Source: an uncultured Alphaproteobacteria bacterium
GTDB taxonomy: Bacteria > Pseudomonadota > Alphaproteobacteria > Rs-D84
Direction: 5' to 3'
Length of the DNA stretch: 64,000 bases
Assembly: GCA_905234185.1 (NCBI GenBank)
Contig: CAJOGC010000001.1
Coordinates: forward strand, 95,765 to 159,764
Positions within the stretch are counted from its first letter, which is position 1. Every line of letters begins with the position of its first letter. The translations under genes were made by a program, and so were the position numbers. This document shows, one piece after another, positions 10,639-52,433 of this stretch. The notes below the pieces were generated by a model that was not told where the DNA came from, searched no databases, and was given only the letters and a program-made list of their open reading frames with translations.

Positions 10639-12408
10639 ATGAATCTGACTGATTCTGCTTTTTTATGTTTGGACATTGGATCATCGGCTGTTCACGGTAT
10701 TGCACATCGTGTGCGTGGTGCGCGCATTGCAAAATCTGCAATGTTCACGGCCGAATCTTTTGATACAACCGCCGCAATCAAGGCGGTCCTTGATGAACTT
10801 GAATCGCAAATCGGACGCCATTTTGACGATGCATACATTACCGGAAATTTTGGACAATCGTCTTACGATTTGACTATTAAAAATCTTGTTTGGTCGAACG
10901 AACACCGCATATCTGGTACCGATGTCCGATCCCAGATTTCACAAATAACACCACCGGACGGATATTTACCATTACATATCGTGCCACTGCGATATGACAC
11001 AACAACGGTTCACAATTTACGAACACCGATTGGCCGTGTTGATACACAATTAGTATCTGCATTTGGTGCAATATTTTATCCGGTTTCCAATATTAATGAA
11101 ATCAATACATTTATGCGTCATGCTCACATGCAGACGAACGGTTTTTACGATCCACAATTTGTCCAGAACGCCGCGTTTCGCAAACCCAAAGACATTGTGA
11201 TGTTTATAGATTTTGGTGCGGAATTTACATCTGCATCTATTTGGACGGATCGTGGTCCAATGTGGCATTATAAATTGCACATTGGTGGCACAAATATATC
11301 ACAACAAATTGCAACCGATTTTGATATTAGTTTTGCCGAAGCGGATCGAATAAAACGCGCGGTATTTACAATGTTGCCCGGTCCAACTGATCGATTTACA
11401 CCGGCGGATGTCGCGTATGATTTTTCCCGTGCCGATGTTAACGATATCATCATAAAATACATGACCGATATCATTAATGACATTCGTAATAACGCGGCTG
11501 AATCCATTGATAAATATAAACCACGTCACATTATTATTACCGGTGGCGCATCGGACGCCAACAATGTCACCGATTTTGTATCAAATGCATTTGGTCTGGA
11601 ATGTGAAAGTTTTCATGACGACGCATCTGTTCGCGCATTGGGCGAATTTATATGGAATACAACCGCACCAGAGCGGGCCAAGATTATCGCAAAACAAGAT
11701 AAGTGGAATGCACGCACAGAACGTATATTGAAAATATTTCATCGTAAACCAAAACCACGGCGCACATTTGTCCCGATTATGCCAAGCACACTTTGTTTCA
11801 ACATGAACGATCCAACCACATACACAACATTCGATGCGGCGGGAATAAGTATGATTCATGTCGATATAATGGACGGTTTATATGTGAATCGGATTGCGGG
11901 TGGATTGGAACAAATTCGCAACATACGCGCCAAAACGACGGCACACCTGCATGTTCATTTGATGACGGAAAGTCCGTCCGTATGGGCAATGGACGCAATT
12001 GCGGCGGGCGCGGACACGGTGATTGTTTCAACAAACACATCGGGGGTTAAAAACGCAATTCGCGCAATCAAGGCATCTGGCCGTCGCGCCGGAATCGCAT
12101 TGAACCCAGATACACCACCGGAAATATTGAAACCAGTTATTCGTGATTTAGACGAAGTAATGGTAATGGCGGTCACACCCGGTGCCGCTGGCCAAGATTT
12201 TTCCCCGGCATGCCTGCACAAGATTTCACTGCTGGCCGCAACGCGTAAAAAATATGGTCTGAACTTCAAGATTTCTGTGGACGGTGGCATAAATGATAAA
12301 ACCGCCCCACTCTGTTGGAATGCCGGCGCGGACTATCTGGTTTCTGGTTCATACTTGGCACACGCATCGGACTTTCCAGTCGCGGTACAAAGTCTATTGA
12401 AAAAATAA
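10639..12408 (+). CDS. FtsA - ribulose-phosphate 3-epimerase fusion protein
   Basis: N-term FtsA/actin-like ATPase (CLDIGSSAVHGI; MFIDFGAEFTSASIW; IIITGGAS); C-term RPE TIM barrel (IMPSTL; IHVDIMDGLYV; HLHVHLM; VTPGAAGQDF; ISVDGGI; VSGSYL); one uninterrupted 589-codon frame. Confidence 0.85.
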   Translation: MNLTDSAFLCLDIGSSAVHGIAHRVRGARIAKSAMFTAESFDTTAAIKAVLDELESQIGRHFDDAYITGNFGQSSYDLTIKNLVWSNEHRISGTDVRSQISQITPPDGYLPLHIVPLRYDTTTVHNLRTPIGRVDTQLVSAFGAIFYPVSNINEINTFMRHAHMQTNGFYDPQFVQNAAFRKPKDIVMFIDFGAEFTSASIWTDRGPMWHYKLHIGGTNISQQIATDFDISFAEADRIKRAVFTMLPGPTDRFTPADVAYDFSRADVNDIIIKYMTDIINDIRNNAAESIDKYKPRHIIITGGASDANNVTDFVSNAFGLECESFHDDASVRALGEFIWNTTAPERAKIIAKQDKWNARTERILKIFHRKPKPRRTFVPIMPSTLCFNMNDPTTYTTFDAAGISMIHVDIMDGLYVNRIAGGLEQIRNIRAKTTAHLHVHLMTESPSVWAMDAIAAGADTVIVSTNTSGVKNAIRAIKASGRRAGIALNPDTPPEILKPVIRDLDEVMVMAVTPGAAGQDFSPACLHKISLLAATRKKYGLNFKISVDGGINDKTAPLCWNAGADYLVSGSYLAHASDFPVAVQSLLKK

Positions 12409-12410
12409 AA

Positions 12411-12457
12411 TCCCCTTCGCTGGCGAAGGGGTGTCACGACAGTGACGGGGTAGTGGT
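12411..12457 (+). repeat. Two-hairpin palindromic repeat, copy A
   Basis: TCCCCTTCGCTGGCGAAGGGGTGTCACGACAGTGACGGGGTAGTGGT. Confidence 0.85.
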
Positions 12458-12799
12458 AATAAAACCACCAATATATTCCAACACAACAGACATATTATTT
12501 TTTACATCACTATCAGAAAAATGTATAACCTGTAACCCCAATGACTTCAAATATTCGTCACGTTTCAAATCATATTCTAATTTATTATCGTGTGAACCAC
12601 CGTCTATTTCTATGACCAAATTTATTTGCGGGCAATAAAAATCCACAATGTAATTTCCAATAATTTTTTGTCGGTCAAAATCCAAATTAAAAAATTGACG
12701 GTTTTTTACTTGGTTCCATAATAACACTTCTGATAACGTGGAGTTTTTTCTTAATTCGCGCGCCAATGGTCGTAAAGATTCATTTTGTGGTAATTTCAT
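12434..12799 (-). CDS. DUF559 (VSR-like, PD-(D/E)XK) endonuclease-domain protein
   Basis: LRKNSTLSEVLLWNQVKNRQF...DFYCPQINLVIEIDGGSHDNKLEYDLKRDEYLKSLGLQVIHF. Confidence 0.85.
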   Translation of the reverse strand: MKLPQNESLRPLARELRKNSTLSEVLLWNQVKNRQFFNLDFDRQKIIGNYIVDFYCPQINLVIEIDGGSHDNKLEYDLKRDEYLKSLGLQVIHFSDSDVKNNMSVVLEYIGGFITTTPSLS

Positions 12800-12804
12800 T
12801 TTAA

Positions 12805-12851
12805 ACCACTACCCCGGCGTATTCACGCCACCCCTTCGCCAGCGAAGGGGA
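12805..12851 (-). repeat. Two-hairpin palindromic repeat, copy B (inverted relative to A)
   Basis: Minus: TCCCCTTCGCTGGCGAAGGGGTGGCGTGAATACGCCGGGGTAGTGGT. Confidence 0.85.
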
Positions 12852-23492: not shown

Positions 23493-23550
23493 TCCCCTTC
23501 GCTTGCGAAGGGGTGGATTGTGAGCATACGCGAACAAGACGGGGTAGTGG
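23493..23550 (+). repeat. Two-hairpin palindromic repeat, copy D
   Basis: TCCCCTTCGCTTGCGAAGGGGTGGATTGTGAGCATACGCGAACAAGACGGGGTAGTGG. Confidence 0.85.
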
Positions 23551-23570: not shown

Positions 23571-23622
23571 TCCACTACCCCGCCAGCTGCGCTGGCCCGT
23601 CCCCTTCGCCCGCGAAGGGGAA
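23571..23622 (-). repeat. Two-hairpin palindromic repeat, copy E (inverted relative to D)
   Basis: Minus: TCCCCTTCGCGGGCGAAGGGGACGGGCCAGCGCAGCTGGCGGGGTAGTGGA. Confidence 0.85.
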
Positions 23623-48105: not shown

Positions 48106-49254
48106 TCAACTTCCCCTTGCAGATAATTGTTGGTCTTTGTGTATATGTGCGTTTTGTGCCAAACCGAATCCGAACATTAGCGATAACAAACTGCTGCCAC
48201 CAAAAGACATTAATGGCAATGGTACCCCAACGGTAGGCATTAATCCCAAGACCATAGAGATATTTATAAAGTAATAAATGAAAAAGTTCAACATAAAACC
48301 AAAACACATTAATTGCCCGAACCGATTTCGACATGTTTTTGCGCACCAGAATAAAATCATTATTATCCATGTGTATATTCCCAAAAGTATAAATGCCCCC
48401 AAAAATCCGAATTCTTCGCCCAGCATTGTATAGATAAAATCAGTCTGTTTTTCGGGTAAAAACGATTGTTGTGATTGGGAACCATGCATATACCCCTGGC
48501 CCAGGAATCCGCCACTGCCGAATGCTATTTTTGCCTGATTTATCTGGTATCCGACACCGCGTGCATCATGATCTGGATTAATAAAAGTTATAATACGGTC
48601 GCGTTGATAGTCATGCATGCCACCATACCATACAACAGGTGCCGCTAATATTCCCAAAATAATGGCGATAATAAACCATTTTTTCGGGGCACCAACAATA
48701 TAAAATATTCCAACTGTAATAAGCCCCAAAGATAACGCAGTTCCTAAATCAGGTTGTGCGACAATTAATCCAAACGGCATAAACAACATAAGTATCGGAA
48801 TAATATAGTTTTTTATCTGTGTTAATTCTAACGAATTCATCCATGCGAAATAACGCGCCAGTGCCATAACAAGGGCTATTTTTATAAATTCAGATGGTTG
48901 GACATTCATAAATCCCAGGTTAAGCCATCTTTGCGCCCCCATACCGGTATGCCCAACAAAAGTGACCAAAATAATCATTAATAAAGCAACGGCATAAATA
49001 AGATATGCAGATTTAATCCATAATTTAATATTGGAAAACGATGCTATAAAAAATACAACGAACCCCAGCGACATTTTCAACAATTGTGGAAATGCAAATG
49101 GTTGCCATGAACCATGCCCAGCAGAATATAAAACAACCACAGAAATAGCCAAAACAATGCACATAGGTGTGAAAAGTGCCCATGAAAAACGGGACATCTT
49201 TTCGGACAGACGCATCATATTAGCATTAGAAACACGGGTTTGTTGTCTTTGCAT
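48106..49254 (-). CDS. rodA: Rod-shape peptidoglycan polymerase RodA
   Basis: SEDS family; QPDLGTALSL; GMMPTVGVPLP-like (VLGLMPTVGVPLPLMSFGGSSLL). Confidence 0.93.
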   Translation of the reverse strand: MQRQQTRVSNANMMRLSEKMSRFSWALFTPMCIVLAISVVVLYSAGHGSWQPFAFPQLLKMSLGFVVFFIASFSNIKLWIKSAYLIYAVALLMIILVTFVGHTGMGAQRWLNLGFMNVQPSEFIKIALVMALARYFAWMNSLELTQIKNYIIPILMLFMPFGLIVAQPDLGTALSLGLITVGIFYIVGAPKKWFIIAIILGILAAPVVWYGGMHDYQRDRIITFINPDHDARGVGYQINQAKIAFGSGGFLGQGYMHGSQSQQSFLPEKQTDFIYTMLGEEFGFLGAFILLGIYTWIIMILFWCAKTCRNRFGQLMCFGFMLNFFIYYFINISMVLGLMPTVGVPLPLMSFGGSSLLSLMFGFGLAQNAHIHKDQQLSARGS

Positions 49255-49255
49255 T

Positions 49256-51031
49256 TTATACCCCAGATTTCAATAATTCTTTCATTACAGTGGCAACTGT
49301 TCTTGCCGCCGGTCCAGAACCACCGGAATGTTCCGTGATAACGCATACGACATATTTTGGATTATCTGTGGGGGCATATCCCACAAACAGACCATGATTT
49401 CGCATATTCCATTGTAATTGTTCATTTGTTAAAACACCGCGCTGACGTTCTGCTTTTGAAATACTGCGCACCTGGGATGTTCCGGTTTTTCCGCCCATTC
49501 GTGCGCCATTAACATTTATTGCACTGCCCGCGGCGGTTCCACCAGGTTTAGTGACCTCTTCCAGTCCGTCCAGAACATATTTTATATTTTTTTCTTTTAG
49601 ATTAAGATTTGCAAATCTTGGTGTTTTATATGACATAATAAGACGCGGTTTTACAATACGATTAGAAACAACACGTGATAACATAGTCGCCAGTTGCAAA
49701 CAGTTCACAAGAATAAAACCTTGGCCTATGCCGGAAATTACGGTATCGCCATTAACCCATTGGGTTCCAATATTTTTTTCTTTCCATTTTTTATCTGGAA
49801 TAATGCCCGGCATTTCGCGCGCCAAAATATCACCCATATATTTTTCTGTAAACCCAAGTTTAATTGCCATGCGTTTAATAGCATCTATACCTATTTTCAA
49901 TGCTAACTGATAAAAATATATATCACAAGAATGTTTCAATGCCTTGCTAAGATCTACATAGCCATGACCGTGGTGTTCCCAACAATGATATCTGCGATCG
50001 CCATAATCCCAATGTCCCGGACAAAATACAGTTTGTTTCGGGGATATTGCACCAGATTCTAACGCGGCCAATGCAACAACAATTTTGAATGTAGAACCGG
50101 GTGGATATAAACCTTCGACTGTTTTATTCATAAACGGTTTTGCGACATCTTCGCGCAGTGACGCGATATATTCGTCACCATCATCAGATGTAAATTGATT
50201 TGGATCAAACCCAGGTGTTGAAACCATTGCCAAAATGTCGCCGGTTTTTACATCCATTGCAATTCCACATCCAGAACGATGTGTTGTTAATGCATCGTAC
50301 ATGATTCGTTGTGCACCATCATGAATTGTTGTTTGTAAATCAACCCCAGGAACGGGTTCTGTAAATTGTGATTTATCTTCGCCTGTGATTCGTCCAATTG
50401 CGTTGGTAATCATCACCGTTTGGCCAGGTGTACCGGCTAAATCGTTATTATATCTTTTTTCCAATCCAGTAATTCCGGTTGTATAAAATGGGGCGGTCGC
50501 GATAGGTTTTAATGGTTCACCAACATAACCGAAAAATTGTGATCCCGCTGGTCCCATTTCATATAATCGGGCATAACCACTGGCCACGCGCAACCCCGGC
50601 AAATTTTTGGCCTGGATTCGTGCTAATTCATTCCAATCTGTATTCTGACTTACCAGCACCGGTTGAAAAGCCGGTTGTTTTGCGATTTTTTCGCGAATTT
50701 TATCGATTCTTTTTTCGCGCAGTTTCAATTCGCGTGCGACAATATTAACTAACTCGTCTACATTTTCTGATTCTTCGGGAACGATGTATATGCGATAAAT
50801 AGGTGTATCGCGCGATATTGGAACCCCATCGCGTGATAGTATACGACCGCGTTGAGGCATATTTATTTGTATTCTAAAAGAATTATTTTCGCTTTGTTTA
50901 AGATATGATTTGTGATTGAAAATCTGCATTTGCACCATTCTTAAAATTAAAAATGATGTTAAAATGGCCCCGCCCGTTAAAAACAGTGCGCTGCGACGGT
51001 CAAAAAGATTTGCAACTTCTTTATCTATCAT
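49256..51031 (-). CDS. mrdA: Penicillin-binding protein 2
   Basis: YPPGSTFKIVVAL, GGKTGTSQV; adjacent to rodA. Confidence 0.95.
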   Translation of the reverse strand: MIDKEVANLFDRRSALFLTGGAILTSFLILRMVQMQIFNHKSYLKQSENNSFRIQINMPQRGRILSRDGVPISRDTPIYRIYIVPEESENVDELVNIVARELKLREKRIDKIREKIAKQPAFQPVLVSQNTDWNELARIQAKNLPGLRVASGYARLYEMGPAGSQFFGYVGEPLKPIATAPFYTTGITGLEKRYNNDLAGTPGQTVMITNAIGRITGEDKSQFTEPVPGVDLQTTIHDGAQRIMYDALTTHRSGCGIAMDVKTGDILAMVSTPGFDPNQFTSDDGDEYIASLREDVAKPFMNKTVEGLYPPGSTFKIVVALAALESGAISPKQTVFCPGHWDYGDRRYHCWEHHGHGYVDLSKALKHSCDIYFYQLALKIGIDAIKRMAIKLGFTEKYMGDILAREMPGIIPDKKWKEKNIGTQWVNGDTVISGIGQGFILVNCLQLATMLSRVVSNRIVKPRLIMSYKTPRFANLNLKEKNIKYVLDGLEEVTKPGGTAAGSAINVNGARMGGKTGTSQVRSISKAERQRGVLTNEQLQWNMRNHGLFVGYAPTDNPKYVVCVITEHSGGSGPAARTVATVMKELLKSGV

Positions 51032-51479
51032 TTCTGACCGTTCTTATAAGGTTGGTTATTGGTAAATATAATGTCACCGTCCATAAAAATGTCCAAATCA
51101 TGCGTCCAAGTACGGTCCAATTCAGATATGCTATTTCGGATAAAAATATTCCGACACCAATAAATATCATAAATATATCAATTGCATTATAGTCCAGATC
51201 ACACAAATCAACGAAAATCTGAAAACCATTAATCGCATAGCACAGACAATAAATCGCCGTCCAATAACAAAGCGATGAAAGATTATAATCAATCAAAAAA
51301 CAAAATATTAGTCCAAATGGCATAAACCACGGAATTGGTCGTATAAACGTACAAAAAAATATAGGAATTAATGCCAATATACCACCGGGGTTCCAAAAAG
51401 GCATAGCAAGACGCCATAAAAATATAACCGTTATAAACGGAAATATGGCGCGTAAAAAAGATATTACTTTTTCATTCAT
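51021..51479 (-). CDS. MreD-like rod-shape protein
   Basis: Polytopic 152 aa protein between mrdA and mreC. Confidence 0.6.
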   Translation of the reverse strand: MNEKVISFLRAIFPFITVIFLWRLAMPFWNPGGILALIPIFFCTFIRPIPWFMPFGLIFCFLIDYNLSSLCYWTAIYCLCYAINGFQIFVDLCDLDYNAIDIFMIFIGVGIFLSEIAYLNWTVLGRMIWTFLWTVTLYLPITNLIRTVRNDR

Positions 51480-52297
51480 TTATAATTCGTATCTGTATCA
51501 AACCGTAAAACAATCACACTGGATAACCGCCCAGGTTGTAATACATCGACATCGTCTTGGTTTTTCATTTGTCCGACATATATTCCGGCCGGTAAAACAC
51601 CGCTTATATTACTTGTAATTAACTGTAAACCGGCCGCCGCGCGAAATTGCGGATCACTGAAAAATCCGATTGTCGGCGTTGTAGATCCATTCCCGGTTAA
51701 AAAACCATATACTTCATATCCAGCAATTCGGACCGCAATATTAGTGTCTGTATCGGTGACCGACCGAACGCGTGCGAAACCATCGCCGGTATCTATAATC
51801 ACACCTGCAAATTGATATGATGGCGATACAACAACCATTCCAGGCACAATTCCATCACCCGTTCCGCGATTTATCAAGAAAGTATTATGATGTAATGATC
51901 GATTGTCATGAATAACATCCGCGATTATGGTTTTTTGTGGGATATTTCGTATTACACCTATTTCTTGTTCCATTTTTTTGTTTTCGGCAATTGCTATATC
52001 ACAAATATTTTTATTGGCCAATGCTTCGTCCAGACGAACGCGCAATTCTTCGTTTTTGGACCGCAATGTTGACAGTTCATAAATATTTTCCACGGTATTT
52101 CCAACAACGCGCACAGGCCAAGTAATAATATCACCAACAACATTTGCAATCGGTAATATAACATGTGCCAATCCGTTCATAATGCGATAATCTGGCTTTG
52201 CAATCATAATATATATGAATAATACCGGTAAAACCATGGCCGCCGCCGCGGACCGTATCAAAGCCATGATTTTAGAAGATGCGGATTTTTCTATCAT
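51476..52297 (-). CDS. mreC: Rod shape-determining protein MreC
   Basis: TM + coiled coil LSTLRSKNEELRVRLDEALANK; LINRGTGDGIVPGMVVVSPSYQFAGVIIDTG. Confidence 0.85.
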   Translation of the reverse strand: MIEKSASSKIMALIRSAAAAMVLPVLFIYIMIAKPDYRIMNGLAHVILPIANVVGDIITWPVRVVGNTVENIYELSTLRSKNEELRVRLDEALANKNICDIAIAENKKMEQEIGVIRNIPQKTIIADVIHDNRSLHHNTFLINRGTGDGIVPGMVVVSPSYQFAGVIIDTGDGFARVRSVTDTDTNIAVRIAGYEVYGFLTGNGSTTPTIGFFSDPQFRAAAGLQLITSNISGVLPAGIYVGQMKNQDDVDVLQPGRLSSVIVLRFDTDTNYK

Positions 52298-52433
52298 CGG
52301 GTCCAGTGTAAACACTAAAAAACGAACATTCAATAAAAACTTGATTTTCTGAATAATTATGTCAGAATACAGCCAGTTAAGTGTCCAAAGTGGCAATTGG
52401 CTGCCACCAGGATAGATAAAAAAAGAGGTTAAA

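Follow-up and report, generated by a model that had tools for sequence, protein, structure and literature searches.

An FtsA–ribulose-phosphate 3-epimerase fusion fixed in a family of gut Alphaproteobacteria without a detectable ftsZ gene

The fusion gene and its position

The window analysed here, a 64,000-nucleotide stretch of DNA, comes from a genome of Candidatus Enterousia, a member of the gut Alphaproteobacteria with reduced genomes that constitute the GTDB order Rs-D84 (PMC12306168). It contains an intact open reading frame of 589 codons, free of internal stops, whose product joins an FtsA-type actin-like ATPase to a complete ribulose-phosphate 3-epimerase, Rpe (table 1). The presence of both domains in one frame directly behind ftsQ was the central claim of the initial annotation, and both parts of it hold: the fusion is real according to Pfam and NCBIfam matches, comparison of a family profile with PDB sequences, and an AF2 model matched to known structures by Foldseek, and only one nucleotide separates the two genes (the junction reads TAA-A-ATG). 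The same arrangement, with ftsQ immediately upstream, recurs in the loci examined from other genera. The AF2 model of the fusion protein has a mean pLDDT of 92.4 and a pTM of 0.62, the latter meaning that the mutual placement of the FtsA and Rpe domains is not fixed by the model.

An artefact of assembly or frame, or a fusion confined to a single genome, is hardly credible, given the full-length frames in 122 genomes of the family, which come from many assemblies and projects and include one assembled as a single contig (G067); intact frames in more than 120 genomes likewise speak against an overlooked stop or frameshift between the domains. A free Rpe made from an internal start was considered and dismissed, since the position of the candidate methionine, Met381, varies among M, L, A, Y and Q.

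A 20-bp near-perfect palindrome, CCCCTTCGC-NN-GCGAAGGGG, occurs in four copies in the window, where none would be expected by chance. The first two copies flank a small endonuclease-like gene (12434-12799). It may represent either a terminator or a mobile repeat of the REP type.

Table 1. Features of the fusion locus and of related loci (coordinates refer to the window unless another contig or locus is given).
Feature	Position	Strand	Basis or remark
ftsQ, 226 aa	9957..10637	+	PF03799 E=3.9e-9, POTRA_1; likely same operon as the fusion
FtsA-Rpe fusion gene, 589 aa	10639..12408	+	homologues of full length in 122 of the 124 family genomes sampled
FtsA-fold actin-like ATPase, aa 1-342	10639..11664	+	profiles, AF2 model, nucleotide motifs
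Remodelled part of subdomain 2B without the S12-S13 beta-hairpin, aa 243-263	11365..11427	+	alignment, AF2
Basic helix KWNARTERILKIFHRK where FtsA has its membrane-targeting helix, aa 343-367	11665..11739	+	AF2 helix
Short flexible linker (KPKPRR), aa 368-376	11740..11766	+	pLDDT <50 at 368-374; least conserved segment
Complete ribulose-phosphate 3-epimerase barrel, aa 377-589	11767..12405	+	PF00834, 2fli match
Palindrome copies	12412-12431, 12831-12850, 23494-23513, 23601-23620		
rodA	48106-49254	-	elongasome synthase; sequence, match to FtsW-type query
PBP2/mrdA	49256-51031	-	elongasome synthase; sequence, match to FtsI-type query
mreC-like gene	51476..52396	-	adjoins mrdA-rodA; sequence
mreB of the window's genome	G000:C1:163287		outside the window
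ABC-transporter gene between ftsA and rpe in family f4	L133:3788-5557, L131:7880-9718 and equivalents		

Distribution, age and origin of the fusion

The fusion protein is encoded in at least 129 genome contigs, among them those of Candidatus Enterousia avistercoris, scatequi, excrementavium and intestinigallinarum. For an even view of the order we sampled 142 genomes, 124 of them from the family of the window's host (10 genera) and 18 from five other families. A full-length, stop-free fusion is present in 122 of the 124 family genomes, spanning all 10 genera at 30-84% identity, and in none of the 18 genomes of the sister families; nor did a 385-genome sample of the class yield any outside the family. 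In a tree of Rpe domains, all fused sequences fall on one side of a single branch with 100/100 support. This single clade, together with the restriction to one family, shows that the fusion arose once, no later than the base of the family. The suggestion of the initial annotation that the fusion might be recent is thus rejected, as the tree splits deeply within a family of 10 genera and identity falls to 30% at the deepest. One candidate for a second, independent Rpe fusion, an 874-aa frame in G048, was discarded: family matches are confined to its Rpe part, and the remainder has the look of an extension read out of frame, in a genome rich in GC.

The sister families show what the ancestral arrangement may have been. 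Here ftsA and rpe are separate genes that overlap by 17 bp in G035 and by 1 bp in G036 and G039, and the fusion of such an overlapping pair is the likely source, and the simplest origin, of the composite gene. Separate genes in relatives, which might have told against a genuine fusion, are confined to sister families, where they explain how it originated and do not refute it. The resemblance extends to gene order, with ftsQ lying before ftsA in G035; the sister pair differs in comprising two genes, in encoding a complete FtsA with a membrane helix at its end, and in co-existing with an ftsZ gene elsewhere in the genome. The idea that the adjacency arose directly when ftsZ dropped out of an ftsA-ftsZ-rpe cluster was also considered and is not supported, since ftsZ of the sister families lies away from ftsA-rpe and the gene that separates ftsA from rpe in several f4 genomes encodes an ABC transporter (ABC_membrane and ABC_tran domains).

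Both domains belong to known families. A description of the FtsA-Rpe fusion, of its family-wide fixation or of an FtsA without FtsZ was not found in the literature searched, which included few subscription papers; for the fusion itself this agrees with the initial annotation, which knew of none. The same search returned nothing on the absence of ftsZ in Rs-D84, though an earlier notice is possible, for example in the Enterousia genome paper cited in PMC12306168.

A remodelled FtsA half

The assignment of the N-terminal half to FtsA rests on profile and structure comparisons. Its matches to PF14450 (aa 189-321, E=1.6e-6, 28.9 bits against a cut-off of 31.8) and to the NCBIfam ftsA model TIGR01174 (aa 43-320, E=8e-14, 51 bits against an equivalog cut-off of 176) both lie below the curated thresholds, which leaves room for a changed function of this half. 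Nevertheless, FtsA is the best match among actin-like folds: when a profile built from 60 family members was compared with PDB sequences, the FtsA entry 7q6f, aligned over aa 5-338, came out with E=1.1e-21, against 1.9e-11 for PilM and 5.5e-10 for MreB, and FtsA structures also head the Foldseek matches of the AF2 model (best E=8.5e-24, TM-score to the target up to 0.75). The alternative identities of PilM and MreB were rejected on these grounds. The modelled fold has subdomain 1C in place of 1B, as is typical of FtsA, and the putative nucleotide-binding motifs of the actin family are conserved, comprising D12 and G14 in phosphate-1, D191, G193 and T197 in phosphate-2, and G302 and G303 in the adenosine motif.

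The most conspicuous departure from other FtsA proteins concerns subdomain 2B. At the position that we assign to the S12-S13 hairpin, on account of its location between two conserved helices, every family member aligned has a deletion of 10-20 aa relative to nearly all FtsAs of the order and class. The AF2 model has no strands in this region, whereas the sister-family FtsA modelled as a control forms two (278-284 and 290-296) and, further downstream, has a linker that is disordered (389-406) and a helix at its end (407-418). The flexible linker that precedes the terminal helix of an ordinary FtsA is lost as well, as alignment with sister-family and class FtsAs demonstrates. S12-S13 has been reported as essential for the FtsA-FtsZ interaction (PMC4281207), and its loss fits a lineage no longer needing FtsZ docking. 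A shorter hairpin alone is no proof of lost FtsZ binding, since the FtsAs of family f6 (G039, G044), which possesses ftsZ, are also short at this position.

The fusion protein is thus like ordinary FtsA (1e4f/4a2a from T. maritima, 7q6f from V. maritimus) in its fold, domain order, nucleotide motifs and position behind ftsQ, but differs in lacking the 2B hairpin and the flexible linker with the terminal membrane helix, in being fused to Rpe, in scoring below the family cut-offs, and in having no FtsZ partner detected in its genome. With no ftsZ detected anywhere in the family and the FtsZ-docking hairpin gone, this half is no ordinary anchor of FtsZ, and the usual role assumed for it in the initial annotation needs revision.

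In place of the terminal helix, the fusion protein has a predicted helix that is internal and is not preceded by a flexible linker. The segment had been described as basic and amphipathic-looking, and the first half of this description stands: there is a basic helix at the expected place, with a membrane-discrimination factor above 1.34 in 98% of 109 family helices compared with 2.2% of 18-mers from the FtsA core. Strict amphipathicity found no support, as the hydrophobic moment does not exceed that of shuffled sequences of the same composition. The high score stems from charge, and membrane binding through this helix is plausible; in one genus (g25, L166) only a weak form of the helix is present.

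The Rpe half

The C-terminal half exceeds its family cut-off by a wide margin (PF00834, Ribul_P_3_epim, aa 392-573, E=7.7e-46, 156 bits against 21.1). The family profile retrieves the RPE structure 2fli with E=1.7e-60, and in the structure search this half, second only to FtsA among the matches, superposes on 2fli with a TM-score of 0.92. It shares with stand-alone Rpe the whole barrel and the catalytic His/Asp set, at 36% identity to 2fli. The catalytic and metal-binding residues whose retention the initial annotation had pointed out, H407, D409, H440 and D548, are each more than 98% identical among 109 distinct family sequences (in an alignment of 60 sequences the figure for D409 is at least 90%), and the epimerase active site is apparently competent. 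Both halves are under purifying selection, with dN/dS against the nearest relative of 0.063 for Rpe and 0.098 for FtsA, both rough values since dS is near saturation. The mean frequency of the most common residue per column is 0.76 in the Rpe half and 0.62 in the FtsA half.

No separate rpe gene was found in the genome of the window, so that the fused domain is the only one there, and in this family the ancestral-type enzyme, unlike stand-alone Rpe, is found solely in fused form, at the C-terminal end of an FtsA-type protein. According to PMC12306168, these genomes lack most of glycolysis, and most of them retain the genes of the non-oxidative pentose phosphate pathway other than that for transaldolase. 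The Rpe half is probably a working housekeeping enzyme.

An extra stand-alone epimerase of about 217-225 aa is encoded in six family genomes (L219-L224: G089, G121, G126, G100, G060, G091). In the Rpe-domain tree these proteins form a separate long-branch clade with a second copy from G045, for which reason their identity with the ancestral stand-alone Rpe was rejected; they are likely to be a different sugar-phosphate epimerase.

Absence of ftsZ and retention of other division genes

FtsZ organises division in nearly all bacteria, and FtsA is normally understood through FtsZ. The initial annotation noted correctly that no ftsZ follows the fusion gene in the window, and a search of the whole genome was likewise negative. 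The TIGR00065 profile found ftsZ in none of the 124 family genomes and in all 18 sister-family controls. An order-specific profile produced no convincing match among the 124 and recovered 17 of the 18 controls, missing the divergent G038; its sole match in the family covers 37 columns with E=0.035, contains two stops and looks like a chance hit. Several of the negative genomes are 98-100% complete, including the 100%-complete G059, and the single-contig genome of E. intestinigallinarum (G067; L101, OX097180.1) is among them. As far as sequence profiles can tell, ftsZ of this family is absent or has diverged past recognition. Its loss maps to the same branch of the tree as the fusion; this coincidence consists of one event each at one point of the tree, and hence no causal link can be inferred from it.

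In G038, a member of the sister family f5, a 408-aa protein (L144:8519-9745) resembles FtsZ only faintly (E=2.8e-8), and Pfam does not recognise it as FtsZ. A search of this genome gave no match to FtsA or Rpe of the fusion family and no Mur ligases. Its lineage is possibly a second one losing FtsZ.

Other division and cell-wall genes were sought in six family genomes (G000, G067, G059, G107, G080, G157), and each of these has FtsI, FtsW, MraY, MurG, RsmH, RodA and PBP2; MreB was found in eight of nine. The combination resembles the FtsZ-less, MreB-dependent division of Chlamydia, where ftsZ is likewise missing and MreB, an FtsQ-type protein, FtsW, FtsI and lipid II enzymes are retained. The difference lies in ftsA, which is missing too from Chlamydia and from Wolbachia of group J (PMC10591338), whereas the fusion family keeps it in a reshaped and fused form. 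The same paper compares obligate intracellular lineages, in which the two genes are either both retained or both lost.

Possible role of the fusion protein

The explanation that we favour, and regard as rather likely, is that the fusion protein is an FtsZ-independent FtsA adaptor working with FtsQ, FtsW, FtsI and MreB, with Rpe as a covalent passenger that keeps its enzymatic role. All evidence for this account comes from assembled genomes. In the ancestor of the Enterousia family, adjacent overlapping ftsA and rpe genes would have become one frame, ftsZ being lost on the same branch. The FtsA half has kept its ATPase fold with subdomain 1C and given up the FtsZ-docking hairpin and the flexible linker, and the basic helix between the domains probably preserves membrane binding. 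As a membrane adaptor or filament, this half would most likely act in constriction together with FtsQ, FtsW/FtsI and MreB, and the Rpe half would be carried along as the presumably active housekeeping epimerase, serving the non-oxidative branch of the pentose phosphate pathway. A direct activation of FtsW by FtsA, as cited in PMC10591338, would allow for such an FtsZ-independent role.

The epimerase might, of course, be more than a passenger. RPE enzymes form oligomers, and the PDB entries closest to the Rpe half are many-chained, 2fli and 7b1w having 12 chains each; Rpe oligomers could thus multimerise membrane-bound FtsA across the short inter-domain linker of the AF2 model and replace part of the clustering otherwise provided by FtsZ filaments, the fusion then being causally linked to the loss of ftsZ. 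The exact coincidence of fusion and ftsZ absence on the tree, and the fact that neither a split nor a loss of either half is seen among the 122 genomes, would suit this scenario, but the coincidence is a single one and FtsA is able to self-assemble unaided, and we consider the scenario unlikely. Slightly less credence still is due to its fuller form, in which Rpe is a structural replacement of FtsZ and an enzyme-actin fusion organises division by clustering FtsA at the membrane.

It is also conceivable that the FtsA half no longer takes part in division and has another membrane or cytoskeletal role, MreB driving division as in Chlamydia. The faster evolution of this half compared to Rpe, its profile scores at or below the cut-offs, and the presence of MreB, RodA and PBP2 are compatible with such a shift; the position right after ftsQ kept in the other-genus loci, the retained ATPase motifs, and the retention of FtsW and FtsI make it improbable. 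Regulation of division through FtsA by an epimerase domain sensing pentose-phosphate flux, the moonlighting link raised in the initial annotation, has, in our view, the least to commend it among these functional alternatives: the covalent link has been maintained across 10 genera, and the genomes have lost most of glycolysis while the non-oxidative pentose-phosphate genes persist, yet there is no extra sensory element, the catalytic site looks ordinary, and the poorly conserved linker speaks against a finely tuned interface.

Whichever of these explanations applies, the family, with 10 genera sampled, adds to the Alphaproteobacteria an FtsZ-less lineage that retains FtsW/FtsI and MreB. It offers a natural system for studying how FtsA acts without FtsZ, what arranges FtsW and FtsI in the absence of a Z-ring, and whether division can be scaffolded by oligomers of an enzyme.

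MreB and peptidoglycan precursor genes

The one genome of the nine lacking a true MreB match, G080, has a weak Hsp70-like one only; it carries the fusion and has no FtsZ detected. If this gap is real and not one of the assembly, G080 would lack both FtsZ and MreB.

Searches for MurB, Ddl and the Mur ligases (MurC-F) were negative in G000, G067, G059 and G107, and the early enzymes, the only ones tested in G112, are absent there too. In G000 the observation refers to the locus G000:C2:150730-153946, and other genera of the family keep scattered remnants of precursor genes. Synthesis of lipid II without synthesis of its precursors suggests scavenging of UDP-MurNAc-pentapeptide or the existence of unrecognised enzymes.
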